Origin: Armatimonadota bacterium | GTDB lineage: Bacteria > Armatimonadota > HRBIN16 | Direction of reading: 5' to 3' | Assembly: GCA_026003195.1 (NCBI GenBank) | Contig: BPGU01000001.1 | Span: forward strand, 372,001 to 436,000 | DNA length: 64,000 nucleotides | Part shown: positions 49,220-59,478 of the stretch, one piece after another | Layout of the letters: each line of letters opens with the position of its first letter | Numbering within the stretch: position 1 is the stretch's first letter | Made by a program: the position numbers and the translations under genes | Notes under the pieces: model-generated | The model's input: the letters and a program-made list of their open reading frames with translations, nothing else | What the model was told of the DNA's origin: nothing | Databases searched by the model: none

Positions 49220-50695
49220 CTACTCAGCGCCCCGGTGGTGCGCTTCCTTCATCCTTTGCAGGTCCGCCTCCAGAATAGCACGCCGTGTGGCAGGCGACAG
49301 GTTCGCTGAGCGTGAGCCCGCTCCTACTCCCAGCCTGTCCAGGTTGGCGTTGGCGACCTCCAGCAGGTAACGGGTGTAAGCCGGGTTGTGTATGCCCATG
49401 CTCTTGTCGTTCAGGATGAAGCGGTAGTTATGTCGCGCTCGCTTGACCTCGATAGGCACTGACGCCTGGTTCGGCGGAGTCTTGCCAAGAGCCTGGATGT
49501 AGGAGGTATAGTCCCACAGGTCAGGGTCTCCAAACTGTTCCTGCGCCCATGCCTGCAGGCGCGAGCGTAGCGCCAGCAGCCCCTGCTCGACCTGGCTCTT
49601 GGTGGCTTGAGCGCGTGCTGCCGCATCCGCCGCCGTATGGCACGGCGAACAACCTGTGTCATAGCTCACGGTAAAGGTGTGACGGGCGTTCGCCACGTGG
49701 CAGTGCGAGCACTGTCCGGGTGCGGTCGCATGAGCGGTGTTACGTACCAGGGGACCGGACTGTTCTTCCACACCAGTGATGCCCATGAGCATGTTGTACT
49801 GGTTGCTGTAGTGGAAGTTCACGCGAGCGGTACCTGCGTTCAGTGACGCATCGGACGGGTTGCCGCCACGCCCATTATGGCACGAGGCGCATATCTGGTT
49901 GAAGGTGGTATGCTGTTTGGCTGGAGCGCCCGGCGCCACGTCAGTGGTATCGGTGTTCAGCACGGCGCGTCGCAGCTGCACCTCCTTGCCCTGCCAGGTC
50001 AGGTTGCCCGTCTGGCGGTGCGGATCGTGGCAGGACACGCAGGATGCGCTTTCGTGGGTGGCGTGCGCAATTTCCACGATGGAGTCTGCACTCATCGCCT
50101 GGATGCCGGCATCGATGGCGTCTCGCGATTGCCCATAGGTGAGCTTGCTGTCCACCATCTGCGTGCGGAAGGGTGCACTGTGACAGCGGAAGCAGTTCTT
50201 ACCGTATACGTTCGGATTGGTCTCCGCCTCCTCGATAACAGTCTCTACCGCTCCTGCATGTCCCGACTGTTCGTACTGCGCGGCGATAGTGCCGTGGCAT
50301 TGCGCACAGACCACCGAGCTCGCGACATTTGGATAGGTGAGGATGTTCTCCTTAAGCGGAGCCTCTACATGCTTGCTGCCCGGACCGTGGCACTGCTCGC
50401 AACCCACGTTCACTTGCGCGTGTTTGGTTTTTGCCCAGGCAACGGCCACCGGTTCTGCACCTGTTTGCCGACTACCTGCGCCGTGACACCCCAGGCACTG
50501 TTCAGAGCCTACGTAGCTGGCGTCCTTCTGCGCCGCAGGCAGCAGCTCAGTGAAGCGGGAGGAAGGAGACGGCGTTCCGGTGCCGGGCGGCTGTATTAAC
50601 GGACCACCCCCGCCTCCGCATCCCCCCAGCGCCACTACCGCAACCGCCAGCGCCAGCGAGACGCTCGCCAGCCCAAGAATGCGTTTTCTGTGCAT
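49220..50695 (-). CDS. Octahaem c-type cytochrome lipoprotein
   Basis: This 491-residue electron carrier has a signal peptide with lipobox LGGC at about residue 25, followed by a Gly/Pro linker, so it is probably anchored in the outer membrane. Eight CxxCH haem motifs occur in order: CLGCH, CEQCH, CAQCH, CFRCH, CVSCH, CASCH, CSHCH and CSPCH. Histidines between them could serve as distal ligands. The last 130 residues contain no haem motif and look helical. It is the last gene of the minus-strand porin-cytochrome operon, 30 nt after its neighbour. It could be the surface-exposed terminal reductase. Confidence 0.9.
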   Translation of the reverse strand: MHRKRILGLASVSLALAVAVVALGGCGGGGGPLIQPPGTGTPSPSSRFTELLPAAQKDASYVGSEQCLGCHGAGSRQTGAEPVAVAWAKTKHAQVNVGCEQCHGPGSKHVEAPLKENILTYPNVASSVVCAQCHGTIAAQYEQSGHAGAVETVIEEAETNPNVYGKNCFRCHSAPFRTQMVDSKLTYGQSRDAIDAGIQAMSADSIVEIAHATHESASCVSCHDPHRQTGNLTWQGKEVQLRRAVLNTDTTDVAPGAPAKQHTTFNQICASCHNGRGGNPSDASLNAGTARVNFHYSNQYNMLMGITGVEEQSGPLVRNTAHATAPGQCSHCHVANARHTFTVSYDTGCSPCHTAADAAARAQATKSQVEQGLLALRSRLQAWAQEQFGDPDLWDYTSYIQALGKTPPNQASVPIEVKRARHNYRFILNDKSMGIHNPAYTRYLLEVANANLDRLGVGAGSRSANLSPATRRAILEADLQRMKEAHHRGAE

Positions 50696-50725
50696 ATACC
50701 TGACCTCCTTTACGATGCACAGTTT

Positions 50726-51835
50726 TTACGGTGAGGGGTACGGTTGAGACAGTTTCCGTAACTGCTCGTTTGTTAAAGGTTCGGCGTACAGCATCTGTTT
50801 CAAATCTGCTCCAGACTCCAGGAACACCCACTTGGTGGGGTCGGTGGTGGGTGATGTGGGGTCACCCGTGTAATCCACAAAGTCCACCTGAAACGCCGTC
50901 TGCCAGTCTGGAGGCACAGGGACTATACCCTTGGTGTTGACAATCTTGGAACCGTCCCACCGGGTAAGGGTGATTTTGCCGGTCTGGTTGTACTCGCGAA
51001 TGACCGCGTTGTCGTGGCAGTCTTCGCATTTGCGGGCGTTCTTGGCGATGGTGTGCGCACGGTAAGGCGCCACCACCAGGATGGTTTTGTCGTTGTAGTT
51101 CAGGGTCATGATGGTGCCAGAATACACCTTGCCGGTGCTCTTCCGACGCAGCAGCAGCATGTAATCCTTGAGCAGGGTGTGCGGTCGTTTCACCTTGCCC
51201 TGAATCTCACTCTGCAGATGGCAGTTATAGCAGGACACAATGGACTGGGTGTGGCATGCCAGGCAGTCTACATCGTTTTTATGGATGTTGTGCGCTTGAT
51301 TGTCAGCCAGCGACCGATGGCAGTGCTCACACCTTATCTTGACCGCACCTTCATCCAGCCAGGAGGCATACTGCTTGCCATCGCCGTGTACATCTTCCAG
51401 GGTGTGGCAGCTCATGCAGCGAAAGCCCTTTGCCCGGTGAGCGTCGCTGTAGAGCGCCATCTCACGCGCCTGCCGGCTGTGGCACTTCAGGCAGATCTGG
51501 TCGCTGACGGGCGAACCGGGGCTGGTATGACAGTCGTCACAGCCGGGCTGGTATGTGGCGGTGTCGATAGGCGTTCCATCTGCCTTGGTGCCGGGATGGC
51601 ACTTCATACATCCTTCAGGAACAGGGATGTTGGTGAGCGTTTCGAAACCGCCGTTGGCTTTGCTGTACCATGTGACTTTGCCCGCTCGGGTGGCGTGCAG
51701 GCTGGTGCGGAAAGCTTCTTCAATGGATACGGTGCTGACTTTTGTCGATTCGCCGCCACATCCGTACAGCAGCAAGACGGCAGCAACAACGGCGCCGCTG
51801 AAACTTGCGAACGTGAGACGTTTCATGTTTCTCAT
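50726..51835 (-). CDS. Second octahaem c-type cytochrome lipoprotein
   Basis: This 369-residue protein has a lipobox-type signal (VAAVLLLYGCGG). Eight haem motifs are CMKCH, CDDCH, CLKCH, CMSCH, CEHCH, CLACH, CYNCH and CEDCH. The C-terminal 100 residues lack haems. AGGAGG lies eight bases before the ATG on the minus strand. The gene follows the porin gene by 31 nt. Order and features fit an outer-membrane or periplasmic partner of the conduit. Confidence 0.9.
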   Translation of the reverse strand: MRNMKRLTFASFSGAVVAAVLLLYGCGGESTKVSTVSIEEAFRTSLHATRAGKVTWYSKANGGFETLTNIPVPEGCMKCHPGTKADGTPIDTATYQPGCDDCHTSPGSPVSDQICLKCHSRQAREMALYSDAHRAKGFRCMSCHTLEDVHGDGKQYASWLDEGAVKIRCEHCHRSLADNQAHNIHKNDVDCLACHTQSIVSCYNCHLQSEIQGKVKRPHTLLKDYMLLLRRKSTGKVYSGTIMTLNYNDKTILVVAPYRAHTIAKNARKCEDCHDNAVIREYNQTGKITLTRWDGSKIVNTKGIVPVPPDWQTAFQVDFVDYTGDPTSPTTDPTKWVFLESGADLKQMLYAEPLTNEQLRKLSQPYPSP

Positions 51836-51866
51836 GGTCTGTACCTCCTTCGGCTTTCCACAGGGA

Positions 51867-53573
51867 CTAGAATCGTCCGCTGAGTGACAGCATCACTAGA
51901 TGCGTATCGTAATCCATCAGGCTGACCACCTCATCACGATAGCTCCACGGCGCGATGGTCAGCGTCAGTTCGTAGTCCGAAGGCAAGCGGTAGCTGATGT
52001 TTGCCGTAAAGAACCGCCCTTCGGTATTGCCGTCCCGCAGTAACAGCGGGTTGTCGTTATCGGTGACGAAGTTGGTGTAGCTCGCGCTGATGGTGGCGCG
52101 GCTATTGATGTTCCAGTTGAACCCGATGGTACTGACCCGGCTATTGGGCACGAAATGGTCCAGCGTGGGCGATTGCGTCACTTCGCTACGCGCTGTCCAC
52201 ACTTCGGAGGAATACTCCGCAAACAGGCTGAGGTCGTCTCTGGGCGTCCACGTGCCCCCCAGGGTCACGCCGTTCAGGTTGAGCGCAACCGCCCGCACCC
52301 CGTTGGACCATCGTCGGTAGGTATAGGTGACGTAGCCGTTCCAGACGGTAGTGCCTCCGTCCAGCTTCACCTGCGCGAACCTTCTGTTGTCCCAGTAAAG
52401 GGAGCGGGGGTCGGTAGTGAGCATGGTGGGCGGGTCGTTGAGATGCTCGTCCCAACCGCGCACCGTCAGACGCAGTTGCTTGCTGAGCCTGCCCCACAGT
52501 CTGCCCTCCACCGTCCACCAGCGCGGCACATCCACGAAAGTGTGGTCAGCGCGTACTCGCTCTGCCTCACGCTCGCGTACACCCACCTGCAGGTTCCACC
52601 GATTCCAGCGATGGATAAGCAGCGCACTGGTGCTACGGCGTTCCCGAACATAAGCGTTCTGCACCACCGGCAACGCTATCTGATCCCGTCGGAACGACAG
52701 AGCCAGCTCGGTGGATGTGTTCAGCGCAATGTCGTTCGCCAGCTGGAAGGTGTCCATGCGGCTGTTCGGGCGATCCTGCTGGCGCAGTTCCATGCGGGCA
52801 ACCGTGCCTTCCACAGCCAGCGCGGGATTGACCTCCCACAGATAGCGAGCATGCCATCGCTCCATGCCGGTGTCGGGGAAGGTGTTGGTGCGGTCAAAGT
52901 ATCGCCAGTCGGTGTAGCCGATGCTGACCTGCCCATTGCCCAGTTGCCCTTCTGCTACTGCGTCCCAGTAGCGGGTGTTCTGCAGCAAGGGTGTTCGTGG
53001 GGATTCCAGATAGTGGTTCTGCCCATCTTGGCGGTAGCGTACGAACACGGCGAAATCAGGGGTGATCGACTGCTTGACGAAAGATTCGGTCACGCTGCGT
53101 TCGCTGGTGGGCAGAACGTCGGGTACCGGTGTGATAAACCGGTTGCGGGTGGTCCACGCTTCGATGCGTGTGGTGCCGAACCCGAACGACAGGTTGCCTT
53201 CCAGCCGGTAGTCATCCTCTGTGGGGCTCCACAGTTGCAGGCGCAGGTTGTCGCCCGTACGCCAGAAGGGCGAGATGTAGCGCAGCTCGCGGATGAAACG
53301 GCTGTTCGGTGGAGTGGCGTACTGTCGAAACTTGGCGAGGCTGCCGCTCTCATTCCACCACGACCAGCCTAGGTCAATCGTCACGGGCTTGGGCGGGGGC
53401 GGTAGAGGTGCTTCCGGTGTTTCCGGTGGAGCCTCGGTTTCCTGTTCCGACGGTGGAGTGACCTGTGCGTGGGCGGGTGCAATCGTCCAGAAACAAGCAC
53501 ATCCTGCAACCAGCCCACCGACAAGTAGGGCATGCAGCAACCGGCGAGTGATGGCACACCATTTGTCATCCAT
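51867..53573 (-). CDS. Outer-membrane beta-barrel porin of a porin-cytochrome conduit
   Basis: The 568-residue product has a signal peptide ending near APAHAQ and a Pro/Glu-rich linker. After this comes about 480 residues of alternating hydrophobic and polar strands, ending in phenylalanine (MLSLSGRF), as outer-membrane barrels do. It lies between a decahaem and two octahaem cytochromes, the layout of MtrAB/PCC complexes, in which the barrel sheathes the decahaem protein across the membrane. No sequence motif of MtrB (such as its N-terminal CxxC) is seen, so homology to MtrB is only positional. I choose ATG 53573 after GGGGGAGG; an in-frame GTG lies three codons upstream. Confidence 0.82.
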   Translation of the reverse strand: MDDKWCAITRRLLHALLVGGLVAGCACFWTIAPAHAQVTPPSEQETEAPPETPEAPLPPPPKPVTIDLGWSWWNESGSLAKFRQYATPPNSRFIRELRYISPFWRTGDNLRLQLWSPTEDDYRLEGNLSFGFGTTRIEAWTTRNRFITPVPDVLPTSERSVTESFVKQSITPDFAVFVRYRQDGQNHYLESPRTPLLQNTRYWDAVAEGQLGNGQVSIGYTDWRYFDRTNTFPDTGMERWHARYLWEVNPALAVEGTVARMELRQQDRPNSRMDTFQLANDIALNTSTELALSFRRDQIALPVVQNAYVRERRSTSALLIHRWNRWNLQVGVREREAERVRADHTFVDVPRWWTVEGRLWGRLSKQLRLTVRGWDEHLNDPPTMLTTDPRSLYWDNRRFAQVKLDGGTTVWNGYVTYTYRRWSNGVRAVALNLNGVTLGGTWTPRDDLSLFAEYSSEVWTARSEVTQSPTLDHFVPNSRVSTIGFNWNINSRATISASYTNFVTDNDNPLLLRDGNTEGRFFTANISYRLPSDYELTLTIAPWSYRDEVVSLMDYDTHLVMLSLSGRF

Positions 53574-53588
53574 AGCTTTCACCTCCCC

Positions 53589-54578
53589 CTACGGGCGACG
53601 CAGCAGCGCGTCAGAGTGAGAACCATGTACAGCCACGTGGCAGCCTGCCATCCAGCAGGTACGCCCCGGATAGTGCGCAGCGGATTTGTCGGTATGGCAC
53701 TGAGTACACAACCCTCTGGAGAATGCATTGAGCAGCTTGGGGTTTTGCGAACCGTGTGCTCGATGGCATTCGGTGCATCCCTCTCCGCTCCATCCGGCAA
53801 CCGGGTCGTGCTCGTAGGTGAACGGTCCCGCTTTGTCGGGGTGACAGCTGACGCACATCTCTTTGATGGGACGGAAGCGTTTTTGCGCCGCCTTGCTGGG
53901 GTGCGCCTCATGACATTCGCTGCACTCCAGCCTGCGTTCGGGAACCGGATGGTGGAAGTTGAGTCGGAACTCATTCGCCTGACGCTGATGGCACTGACTG
54001 CACAGGATGGGATCGTCAAACTTCAACAGGCGACGAGGTTGCGGCTCCTTCTCTGTCTGCGGTGAACGCAGGCTTCCCAGGTTCATCAGCCCGCGTGCAG
54101 GAGGCTCTTTGTGCGGCTGCCAGTGAATCTGGTGGCACGCGGTGCAGGCGACGTCCGCCTTCCCGTGTTGGGTGCGATGCCATTGTGACAAGCGCATGGT
54201 GTCGGCATGGCAGCGCAGGCACATCGCCGCGATGTCCGCAGGCTTGGACTGGCTGTAGCTGAAGATTTTCGAGGGGTCCTCGAGGTGGGGGTTCGCCGGT
54301 CCATGACAGGCTTCGCATCCTTGCTTATCTATGGACAGTTTTGGGTTTCGCACAAAGGGAGCGTGTGGGGAACGATTGAAGTTATCGGCGTGCGGATAGT
54401 GACATCCTGCTTCAGCGCAGTCCTTCTCGCCCATATAATCATCGGGCGTCGCCTTAGCGAAGAGACTCAGCGGATAGGGAGGGTCCTTCTGCTGCCCCTT
54501 CTCCGCCACAACGGTCACCGCTGCTAACAATGCCAGCGCTACTGCGCTCAGAAAGATCCAGCGTTTCTGCACGTTCAC
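53589..54578 (-). CDS. Periplasmic decahaem cytochrome (MtrA/DmsE-like)
   Basis: The 329-residue product has a signal peptide and no lipobox. Ten haem-attachment motifs are present. Eight are CxxCH; the first (CAEAGCH) and the last (CWMAGCH) have four residues between the cysteines. Size and haem count match MtrA and DmsE, which carry electrons through the porin. The start is GTG 54578, six bases after GGGAGGAG. It is the first gene of the operon, 15 nt before the porin. Confidence 0.9.
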   Translation of the reverse strand: MNVQKRWIFLSAVALALLAAVTVVAEKGQQKDPPYPLSLFAKATPDDYMGEKDCAEAGCHYPHADNFNRSPHAPFVRNPKLSIDKQGCEACHGPANPHLEDPSKIFSYSQSKPADIAAMCLRCHADTMRLSQWHRTQHGKADVACTACHQIHWQPHKEPPARGLMNLGSLRSPQTEKEPQPRRLLKFDDPILCSQCHQRQANEFRLNFHHPVPERRLECSECHEAHPSKAAQKRFRPIKEMCVSCHPDKAGPFTYEHDPVAGWSGEGCTECHRAHGSQNPKLLNAFSRGLCTQCHTDKSAAHYPGRTCWMAGCHVAVHGSHSDALLRRP

Positions 54579-54683
54579 AGGAAGCTCCTCCCGAGAACAA
54601 AGGGTTTGTTGTACAGAGCGTGCACAATTGCTAGTGTTTCAAAACAAACTGAATATACTATAGTTTCTCAGTTCACTACTCTA

Positions 54684-54712
54684 AATATACAAAATAACAA
54701 TGTCTTTGTCAA
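54684..54712 (-). promoter_or_regulatory. Promoter of the porin-cytochrome operon
   Basis: On the minus strand TTGACA (54707-54712), a 17-bp spacer and TATATT (54684-54689). The leader of about 100 nt is AT-rich and contains the inverted repeat AACTGA/TCAGTT (54648-54673), a possible operator. Confidence 0.75.
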
Positions 54713-54803: not shown

Positions 54804-56591
54804 CTACTCTTTCGGGGAGGATACGCTGCGGATCGAAAGGTTGTATCGCACGGAACGTTGGGCATCGAGACCAAAATAGAAGACCATCTGCTGTGCCTCC
54901 ATCTGCCGCTGCTGGGCAGGGGCATCGGGTATCAGGCGGCGTTGCTGCTCCATCTCCTCAGCGCTTTCGGCAGCAATGGATACTCGCTCCCCCTCGAGCG
55001 CATATCCTCCTTCGCGCCAGCGATCTATCACGAATGCCATTTCGGCTTGCGCTTCGGGGGTATTCAGCGCATCCAGGAGTATCAGCTTCGGCTGCTCGCG
55101 CAGCTTTGCCAGTATCGCTTCGCGAAATAGTTTGCGCTGAGCAGGTGTCAGCTCCGTGTAAGGGACAGTCTTTCTCTGCAGAGCGAGCTGCTTCTGAGCG
55201 TCCGTCAGGCTTGCCCAGAAGCGGAGGGCGGGCGCGGCGTATTGCAGGGGAGCGGGGTCAAACCGAAAAGAGTACCCCATGCTCGTCTCGGCACGCAGAA
55301 CGCCTGCAGGTGTCAGTCGGGAGGCAAGAGCGGCGTAGTCGTCTAGAGTAAGTCCCTCTGTCGCGGACTTCTGCTCCATCTGGCGCACCAGCGTTTCAGG
55401 AAGTTCGCTCTGCCGCAGACGCCAGTAGCGCGCATGTCGAAAAAGCAGCCACCCTCCCTCGATACGCACATAGCCCGGTTCCTCTGTAGTAAAACGGCTG
55501 AGCCATTCTGCGAGCGTATTGCCTTCGTATACCGGTCGCACTGGCACCCGGAAGGCGTCGGCGATAATGTTCATCCCCGTTTGTTGCGCTATCCAGAGGA
55601 GAGAATCCGCAGCGGTAGCCTGTTCTGCTGGCGGCGCGAGGAGCAACTGTGAGGACTGGATCTTCTGTTGGAACCGACCGAATTCTTCGGGAGATGTGCT
55701 CCACTTTTCCCAGCGCATCTGCAGGGAAGGCTTGTCTTCTGCATCAGGGGAAACCGGATGAGTGTATACTTCCATCTCTGGCTCGGCAGCATTGTCGTCG
55801 GACCAGGTCGCTGCAAGGAATACCAGCTCCTGTCTGGTTTCGTCCAGGCAGATTCCGAAGCGCATGGAGCGTGGTACGGTACCTGCGGGGTAGGCTTTCC
55901 AGCGCAGTGCGTCCACAGGCAGAGGAAGCGTACCTTGGGTCGGCAGTGTGGAGAACCAGATGGTCTCGCCGTTCCACAGCCGACGCCACACACTGGAGGG
56001 AAACTGACGGTATAACCACCCTGCCAGATAACGATGCCACAGGGCAATCTGTAGCACCTGCTGGAATTGCTCTGCAAGAGATGCACGTCGGTCCTGCCAG
56101 CCGGCTGGCTTCTCCTTTTCCAGTTTGGTCATCTCGTTCTCGATATCCAGTGCCCGTGTGGCGTAGACGGGAAAGTCTGCCCGGACCAGTTGTGCCCAGG
56201 TGCGCAGGTTTTTTTCCGCTTCGCGCCGGGTGGCGCGATACTCCCATTCTGCCGCCGCTTGCTCCTGTTGGCGCAGGATGGGATCAGGTAACAGCACATA
56301 GCCTTCACCCTGGGGTTGACATTTCAGCCCCAACAGGCTGACCATTTTGTCGAGCACCTGCCAGGCCGGCTTTTGGGTGATGAAAAGAGTGACTTTCTCC
56401 CCTTTCAGGGAGGGGTCTATCGTGAAGGTGACCTCCGTCTGGTTGCTCAGATGCTGTGCCACTTCATCCAGCAGGGCATTCGGGAGCCGCAGGGTGACCG
56501 GCTTCTGCAGACGAACGTCCCTTTGCCAGTCGTGAGCCCGCGCGTGCACGCACAGCGTAAAACACAGAGCAAGGAGCAGTAACCGGCGCAT
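54804..56591 (-). CDS. Exported protein with secretin-N/STN-like segment, function unknown
   Basis: The 595-residue product has a signal peptide (MRRLLLLALCFTLCVHARAH). Residues 28-100 resemble the STN-type domain of secretins and TonB receptors: LRLPNALLDEVAQHLSNQ, TFTIDPSLKGEKVTLF and AWQVLDKMVSLLGLKC. A second similar segment appears at about 330-400 (LLWIAQQTGMNIIADAF). A charged, coiled region lies at 105-180. There is no barrel, so it is not a secretin itself. The gene follows the amidase by 10 nt on the same strand with AGGAGG before the ATG, suggesting a cell-wall or envelope role. Confidence 0.65.
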   Translation of the reverse strand: MRRLLLLALCFTLCVHARAHDWQRDVRLQKPVTLRLPNALLDEVAQHLSNQTEVTFTIDPSLKGEKVTLFITQKPAWQVLDKMVSLLGLKCQPQGEGYVLLPDPILRQQEQAAAEWEYRATRREAEKNLRTWAQLVRADFPVYATRALDIENEMTKLEKEKPAGWQDRRASLAEQFQQVLQIALWHRYLAGWLYRQFPSSVWRRLWNGETIWFSTLPTQGTLPLPVDALRWKAYPAGTVPRSMRFGICLDETRQELVFLAATWSDDNAAEPEMEVYTHPVSPDAEDKPSLQMRWEKWSTSPEEFGRFQQKIQSSQLLLAPPAEQATAADSLLWIAQQTGMNIIADAFRVPVRPVYEGNTLAEWLSRFTTEEPGYVRIEGGWLLFRHARYWRLRQSELPETLVRQMEQKSATEGLTLDDYAALASRLTPAGVLRAETSMGYSFRFDPAPLQYAAPALRFWASLTDAQKQLALQRKTVPYTELTPAQRKLFREAILAKLREQPKLILLDALNTPEAQAEMAFVIDRWREGGYALEGERVSIAAESAEEMEQQRRLIPDAPAQQRQMEAQQMVFYFGLDAQRSVRYNLSIRSVSSPKE

Positions 56592-58053: not shown

Positions 58054-59478
58054 GTTAGTGCGCAGAAGTGCTGGGCGAAGAGGCACAGGATTTGCCTGCG
58101 CCTGCCAACTGGTGATATGCTTTCACTAAAACACTGCACAAAGGAGAAACAGCCATGAGCCATCTGTGCATTCTTAATCTGTCGCGTGCCCGACAAACAG
58201 CCATCGGATAGCCTTACCCTGCTACACCGCATTGATCTGCCTGCAGCCACTGCCGAGGTTGCCAACTGTCTGGATGAACTGGAGCAGCGTTCCCTCACAG
58301 CCGGTCAAGAGTTGATGCGTCACCTGCTCACGGAACAATGGAAAGAGGTAGACTGGCAGTTGGTAGAAGAATACCGACGGCTTTTTCCCCCTCGGTAGTA
58401 TTCGTGCCGATGGCAACGACCCTGTGAAGGTTCTCACCCGCTTGGGTGTGGTGCATGTACCCCGTCAGGTATGCTACAACCGTGTAGAGGGTCGTCATGT
58501 GATGCCTGGCAATGCCGTACCGGCACACGAAGGGGTGCTGCTCACGCGGGGGCTACAAGAATGGTGTTGCCTTTTGAGCGTGCAACTGCCTTTCCGTGCG
58601 GTGGAGCGTCTGTGAGGTTGGCACAGCGGGGAGGGTCAACTGCTTGGCGCCAGCCAGTTGCGGGTGTTAGTGCAGCAGCATGGGCAACGTGTTCGGCAGT
58701 GAGAGTTGGAGGAGGCTCCAGCCGTTGCAGCGGGGGGGCATCCCCGTTTGCGCGCAGATGGCAGTCTGCTCGCAGGGAGTGGAGACTGTACAGTCCTGGC
58801 TGGTGGGTTCTGACGATGGCTTGGTGATGCAAACAGAGCGCGCGCCTGTTCGGGAGCGGATACCTGAGGGTGAGGTGGTGGTGAGCGTGGGCGAGGTATT
58901 AGTGCGCTATCAGGGGGAAGAGGCGCAGTGGCACGGGATGCGCACGGCATGTGTGGCAACGGCTGGAGGGTATCGGTATGTGAGCGGTGTGGGGGAGGCG
59001 TTCCTGCAGCAGTGATACACCTTGTTGGGTTTATGCGCTGGGGAGTGGAGCGTGCTGCGCATTGTTTCGGACGGAGCGCAGTGGATTAGGGATTGGGCAC
59101 AGCAGTTGAGGCAGTCAGGTTTCCGGGTGGAGCATGTGCTGGACTGGTATCACTTGAAGAAGAAGTGCTATGAGTTGAGCAGTTTGTTTTATGGTGGTGT
59201 TGCGGTCAAGAGGCAGTTGCTGAGGCGTTTACTTCGGGCGTTATGGGGTGGGGAAGTCGATACCGCGTTGGGTATCTTATCTTCCTATCGCACGGAGGCA
59301 CGCCACGTACTGGTGGCGCGCCGTCAGAAGGGGCGTGGGATGCGCTGGGGCGAGGCTGTCAGTGACGGGCTGGCAGCGTTGCAGACGCTGCTATGGAATG
59401 GGGGTTGGGATATGTATTGGCAGGAGGGCAGGACGTTGCCGTTGGCAGCAGCGTAACCCAGCACTTCTGCGCAGTAAC
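58054..59478 (+). mobile_element. Inactivated insertion sequence with 8-bp target duplication
   Basis: Terminal inverted repeats of at least 22 bp match with one mismatch, sharing TGCGCAGAAGTGCTGGG next to GTTAG or GTTAC. AAAAATTT is duplicated at 58046-58053 and 59479-59486. The element of 1425 bp carries one transposase gene broken by several frameshifts. Despite the decay of the gene, the ends and duplications are intact, suggesting a recent insertion mobilised in trans or very fast decay. Family probably ISKra4- or ISLre2-like; not certain. Confidence 0.85.
58155..59456 (+). pseudogene. Frameshifted transposase of the second IS
   Basis: The gene begins at ATG 58155 after AAGGAG. Fragments in successive frames are 58186-58398 (QLVEEYRRLFPP), 58424-58615 (VLTRLGVVHVPRQVCYN), 58680-59015 and 59022-59456. 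The last holds SDGAQWIRDW and VLDWYHLKKKCYEL, typical of the DDE core of ISKra4/ISLre2-type enzymes. At least three frame changes or stops interrupt it, so no functional product is expected. Confidence 0.85.

Follow-up and report, generated by a model that had tools for sequence, protein, structure and literature searches.

A putative porin-cytochrome conduit in Armatimonadota with an MtrA-type cytochrome, a barrel of MtrB-like predicted fold, and an OmhA/OcwA-like outer cytochrome

A 64,000-nucleotide stretch of the genome of a hot-spring bacterium from the HRBIN16 lineage of the little-studied Armatimonadota (assembly GCA_026003195.1, contig BPGU01000001.1, positions 372,001 to 436,000; hereafter the window) carries a cassette of four genes that, judging from sequence comparison and structure prediction, very probably encodes a porin-cytochrome conduit (PCC) crossing the outer membrane for extracellular electron transfer (EET). 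The cassette runs on the minus strand from 54578 to 49220 in the order dec, barrel, oct2, oct1 (Table 1), with gaps of 6, 31, and 30 bases between successive genes. Together, dec, oct1, and oct2 contain 26 haem sites, and barrel has no haem motif. The original prediction, made from the DNA letters alone, had described a four-gene operon with 26 haem sites; its coordinates and counts are correct, provided that the two CX4CH sites of dec are counted. Across all six frames of the window, dec, oct1, and oct2 are the only open reading frames with at least two CXXCH motifs, and the eight found in each compare with a mean of 0.02-0.09 per protein after residue shuffling (maximum of 1-3 in 2000 shuffles). 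The signal peptides are of the lipoprotein type in oct1 and oct2 (Cys26) and, judged by eye, of the Sec type in dec and barrel. Five close relatives have the same four genes with identical haem counts. A near-consensus sigma-70-like promoter candidate (54712-54684) lies 5' of dec, and its position coincides with the upper limit of 54712 set by the original prediction.

Table 1. Features of the cassette, with positions in the window
Feature	Position	Strand	Description
dec	53589..54578	-	Periplasmic decahaem c-type cytochrome, MtrA/DmsE/OmcK type; 329 aa, start GTG, 8 CXXCH + 2 CX4CH
barrel	51867..53582	-	Outer-membrane beta-barrel; 571 aa, Sec-type signal, C-terminal Phe, 26 predicted strands in an MtrB-like fold, no sequence similarity to MtrB
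oct2	50726..51835	-	Octahaem lipoprotein, lipobox Cys26; 369 aa, 8 CXXCH; cassette member only in the window's genus
oct1	49220..50695	-	Octahaem lipoprotein, lipobox Cys26, OmhA/OcwA-like (NrfA superfamily); 491 aa, 8 CXXCH; cassette core member
Promoter candidate, sigma-70-like	54684..54712	-	TTGACA-17-TATATT; 11/12 consensus match, sequence match only

By sequence, dec is a cytochrome of the MtrA/DmsE/OmcK type, which agrees with the MtrA role originally proposed for it. In a sequence search of the PDB, its match to the MtrA subunit of the Mtr complex (6r2q_A) reaches 4.9e-26 as a single sequence and 9.5e-48 as a profile, and hhalign pairs it with a canonical MtrA from Armatimonadota at a probability of 100%. 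It scores just under the cut-off of the DmsE family TIGR03508 (173 bits against 192) and under that of the GSU2203 (OmcK) family NF041028 in NCBIfam (182.6 bits against 325). Its CX4CH sites, at residues 54 and 308, bring the eight CXXCH motifs to ten haem sites. All ten motifs are invariant among 27 dec relatives from the phylum, as are exactly ten histidines outside the motifs, with one further at 96%; ten haems and ten additional invariant histidines fit the requirement of bis-histidine ligation throughout. Haem 10 is bound by CX4CH (CW..GCH or close) in every dec relative, whereas MtrA and the canonical Armatimonadota MtrA have CXXCH at this site. At haem 1, CX4CH occurs only within the window's genus.

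The barrel had been predicted to show no obvious MtrB signature, which holds for its sequence and fails for its predicted fold. Searched alone, the window's barrel has no Pfam or PDB sequence match, including none to TIGR03509 or PF11854, and its NCBIfam search was uninformative; PF11854 (MtrB/PioB) has no match anywhere in the window's genome. A PDB search with a profile of the barrel family (n = 59) yielded no MtrB and nothing beyond a fragment of an outer-membrane porin (6e-7) and matches due to chance, and hhalign found no similarity between this family and a true MtrB from within the phylum (probability, 0.9%). Weak matches do occur among the 59 relatives: 10 to the GSU2204 family NF041027 (best, 7.6e-7), 2 to MtrB/PioB models, and some to general porin models. 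Other genomes of the genus have weak PF11854 matches located away from the cassette. The AlphaFold2 model has 26 strands, with a predicted local distance difference test score (pLDDT) above 90 over most of the barrel region, and among 350,542 PDB chains, Foldseek ranks MtrB (6r2q_B) first (E value, 2.9e-12; template modelling score by target, 0.60), followed by TonB-dependent receptors from 9.5e-10. A C-terminal Phe closes 54 of the 59 barrels. The MtrB signature is thus absent in sequence and present in the modelled fold. Given the size and fold of the modelled barrel and the relationship of dec to MtrA, dec would be housed within its lumen.

Both outer cytochromes are octahaem proteins, so the original description of them as unlike MtrC stands. 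On sequence and predicted structure, oct1 is OmhA/OcwA-like rather than MtrC/OmcA-like. Its profile retrieves OmhA of Carboxydothermus ferrireducens first (6qvm, 1e-17), then OcwA of Thermincola (6i5b, 3.7e-15), MccA, and NrfA. With the predicted model (pLDDT, 86.8), OmhA/OcwA occupy Foldseek ranks 1-3 and are the sole proteins matching below 0.001. The C-terminal helices and a "GVHN" region are common to oct1 and OcwA, but OmhA and OcwA carry 11 and 9 haems, respectively, and belong to Gram-positive cell surfaces with no barrel, whereas oct1 combines 8 haems with a lipobox, the Cys of which is invariant in 50/50 sequences from the phylum. Only seven non-motif histidines of oct1 are fully invariant (two more reach 90-92%) for eight haems; one open-site haem is therefore possible. 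The oct2 gene is present in nine genomes of the window's genus. Outside it, near-full-length homologues were found only in two genomes, G063 (61%) and G249 (44%), with no conduit beside them on those contigs, and the match of oct2 to an MtrC domain II/IV model is below the cut-off. This genus-restricted protein looks like an addition recruited to the cassette.

We examined conservation in 291 Armatimonadota genomes from 156 genera. The barrel is present in 63 of these genomes, about a fifth, and in 32 of the genera. In nearly all of the barrel-bearing loci that were fetched, dec, barrel, and oct1 follow one another in the same order and on the same strand; the exceptions are mostly contig ends, together with a few loci without a detectable oct1 and two distant loci in G007. 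One genome has two tandem dec-barrel pairs (L061:1581-9777), of which only one is followed by a detectable oct1.

The original prediction called for an inner-membrane electron donor of the CymA or cbc type. Candidates other than CymA are encoded in the window's genome. A protein on another contig (L053:8568-10628) has 11 CXXCH motifs and a C-terminal b-type region resembling the formate dehydrogenase gamma subunit (3.1e-12), and a relative matches PF01292 (b561); the protein is CbcL-like by its layout, a multihaem c-type part with a b561-type region. Homologues of it occur in 38 of the 63 barrel-bearing genomes and in 54 of the 228 others (Fisher's exact test, 1e-7, uncorrected for kinship). 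In 14 of the 35 genomes with both genes, the CbcL-like gene lies 2.2-8.1 kb from the barrel, which involves 11 genera and three families; random placement would give about 0.2 such cases. In the window's genome, a Rieske protein and a cytochrome b in frame with a CXXCH-rich region (15 in all) are encoded together with the 11-CXXCH CbcL-like protein (L053:5666-10631; contig C4 of the genome, G000, at about 28.7-33.6 kb), and the set may form an unusual inner-membrane quinol-oxidising module. The genome also encodes an alternative complex III (ACIII) cluster, an Omp85 protein, and CcmF. In another genome, G142, CcmF follows the cassette, and divergent genes for a b561-multihaem protein and a NapC-type protein precede it.

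These components suggest the following route. Electrons from the quinol pool would enter through the inner-membrane CbcL-like multihaem-b561 protein, the neighbouring Rieske-cytochrome b-multihaem proteins, or both, and a periplasmic carrier would take them to dec. Assembled with barrel and the outer cytochromes into one complex, dec would act as a haem wire in the lumen of the 26-strand barrel, spanning the outer membrane, and hand electrons to oct1, a lipid-anchored terminal oxidoreductase exposed at the cell surface. The second lipid-anchored octahaem cytochrome, oct2, added in the window's genus, would widen this surface relay. The flow is probably outward, and the likely acceptors, insoluble or bulky, would be found in hot-spring sediment, e.g., oxides of Fe(III) or Mn, or humics.

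The cassette has adjacent genes for a barrel and for periplasmic and outer multihaem cytochromes, the gene content of a PCC in the broad sense. The proposed MtrA-MtrB-MtrC/PCC-like layout is supported part by part, with an MtrA-type dec, an MtrB-like predicted fold, and outer octahaem lipoproteins. We class it as a putative conduit in this broad sense and not as a member of MtrCAB, because the MtrB sequence family and MtrC/OmcA were both looked for and neither was found. Like the Shewanella system (6R2Q), it combines in adjacent genes an MtrA-type decahaem cytochrome, a barrel whose closest solved fold is MtrB, and an outer lipid-anchored multihaem cytochrome. It differs in the barrel sequence, in the CX4CH of haem 10, and in its outer cytochromes, which in the window's genus are two octahaem proteins, one of them OmhA/OcwA-like, instead of the decahaem MtrC/OmcA. 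The nearest named families are those of GSU2203 (OmcK) and GSU2204 of Geobacter sulfurreducens: all 27 dec relatives match NF041028, although dec stays below its cut-off and the window's barrel has no match to NF041027, which has been assigned to the MtrB/PioB family of outer-membrane barrels (PMC13188914). In Geobacter, expression of GSU2203 and GSU2204 rises with hematite and magnetite (PMC4070692); our search found these expression data and no functional study of the pair. By analogy of layout, ExtABCD of G. sulfurreducens is a precedent for four genes with two outer lipoproteins. It comprises a periplasmic cytochrome, an integral outer-membrane protein, and two outer lipid-anchored cytochromes (PMC8357294), but its haem numbers are 12, 5, and 6 instead of 10, 8, and 8, and its barrel has 18 transmembrane domains instead of 26 predicted strands. 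Finally, in a genome of another Armatimonadota family (G217, L140:5748-9237), the genes for a canonical MtrA and a PF11854 MtrB are neighbours, and the fetched 14 kb includes no gene for an outer multihaem cytochrome. This pair, of the MtoAB/PioAB type, likewise joins an MtrA homologue to a barrel; its barrel, however, is a true MtrB_PioB (345 bits), the one to which the window's barrel family shows no similarity, and its haem 10 is bound by CXXCH.

Several results weigh against an outward conduit as we propose it. The best match to NapC/NirT/CymA (PF03264) in the window's genome, at 17.6 bits, is below the cut-off of 24.1, so the CymA of MtrCAB-type systems has no counterpart there above threshold, and the CbcL-like gene of this genome does not adjoin the cassette. 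Promoter-like sites are no more frequent in the scanned region than the approximately two expected by chance. In a docking probe, dec and barrel were modelled as one read-through chain, with the real stop read as Gln and the barrel signal peptide serving as the linker; the barrel was excellent in this joint model, but dec had a pLDDT below 50 over most of its second half, and its placement was not confident. The superfamily of oct1 takes in enzymes acting on nitrite, hydroxylamine, and sulfite, and oct1 could consequently be such an enzyme instead of a metal reductase.

The last point bears on the view that the conduit supplies electrons to one particular surface enzyme, much as DmsE/DmsF feed a surface dimethyl sulfoxide reductase; oct1 would then act extracellularly to reduce a soluble compound, such as nitrite, hydroxylamine, or a different oxyanion. 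OcwA itself is a cell-surface terminal reductase, has two open haems, and shows slow activity in reducing both nitrite and hydroxylamine (PMC6703420); NrfA comes next after OmhA/OcwA in structural similarity to oct1, and the histidine count allows for an open haem. Nevertheless, oct1 lacks the CXXCK catalytic motif, its nearest relatives are surface EET cytochromes rather than NrfA, and separate proteins resembling octahaem nitrite and tetrathionate reductases are already encoded in the genome; we therefore regard this view as improbable. An equally small chance attaches to its extension to the whole phylum, in which the MtrA-type wire and MtrB-fold barrel, whether the barrel class diverged beyond recognition from MtrB or had a separate origin, would serve a catalytic octahaem surface enzyme of the NrfA superfamily, e.g., for reduction of N- or S-oxyanions or metalloids, and not general metal respiration. 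It is unlikely, although to be kept in mind, that the conduit runs inward, with extracellular Fe(II), a mineral, or a partner cell as the electron source, in the manner of PioAB/MtoAB. MtrA-type conduits can work in both directions, ACIII is present, and Cyc2 and MtoA-like genes have been reported in metagenome-assembled genomes (MAGs) of hot-spring Armatimonadota, with Cyc2 in an HRBIN16 MAG (PMC9671151). Yet the outer lipid-anchored cytochromes, along with the genetically linked CbcL-like protein on the quinol side, are reminiscent of reductive systems, and members of the HRBIN16 clade have been described as facultative anaerobes that degrade organic carbon (PMC9671151). That the cytochromes form a periplasmic or outer-membrane set for charge storage or detoxification, with the barrel an ordinary porin and no conduit, would accord with the poorly placed dec in the joint model and the weak porin matches among barrel relatives, but the strict adjacency of dec, barrel, and oct1 throughout the phylum, the 26 strands, and the top fold match to MtrB make this very unlikely.

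On the preferred reading, that of a conduit for EET, our results indicate a conserved outer-membrane electron conduit in the 63 barrel-bearing genomes of the sample, whereas the papers we found report only scattered multihaem cytochromes in the phylum. Multihaem cytochromes possibly for iron reduction have been noted in HRBIN16 MAGs (PMC9671151), and an Armatimonadota population from a mat was noted to possess multihaem cytochromes in the membrane as well as a candidate octahaem nitrite reductase (PMC11788075); a survey of MtrCAB found the system in three phyla and does not name Armatimonadota in its main text (PMC8805035). No description of the dec-barrel-oct1 cassette was found in our literature search. 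The cassette would unite a wire of the MtrA type and a barrel of the MtrB fold with a type of outer cytochrome so far characterised in Gram-positive bacteria. Since screens based on MtrB or MtrC homology would miss it, the extent of electroactivity in habitats of Armatimonadota may be underestimated. The near-complete genomes of relatives make the question testable.

Other features of the window and its genome deserve brief mention. On the same strand as the cassette and upstream of it in most close relatives lies a fast-diverging gene (44-65% identity) with a weak secretin N0-like domain (54804-56591). A short open reading frame at 59022-59456 resembles, by eye, a transposase fragment and may mark a decayed insertion sequence. 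Elsewhere in the genome, an octahaem protein similar to the hydrazine dehydrogenase/hydroxylamine oxidoreductase family (NF052343, 93 bits, below cut-off) is encoded at L054:9231-10394 (G000 C1, about 1.0877-1.0889 Mb). A cytochrome c552-family protein with seven CXXCH motifs and one CXXCK (L055:7163-8830; G000 C2, about 327.2-328.8 kb) is a candidate octahaem nitrite reductase. A member of the octahaem tetrathionate reductase family (TIGR04315, 589 bits) is encoded at L139:8855-10474 (G000 C4, about 346.9-348.5 kb), and its neighbour resembles, by eye, a YeeE/YedE-type sulfur transporter.

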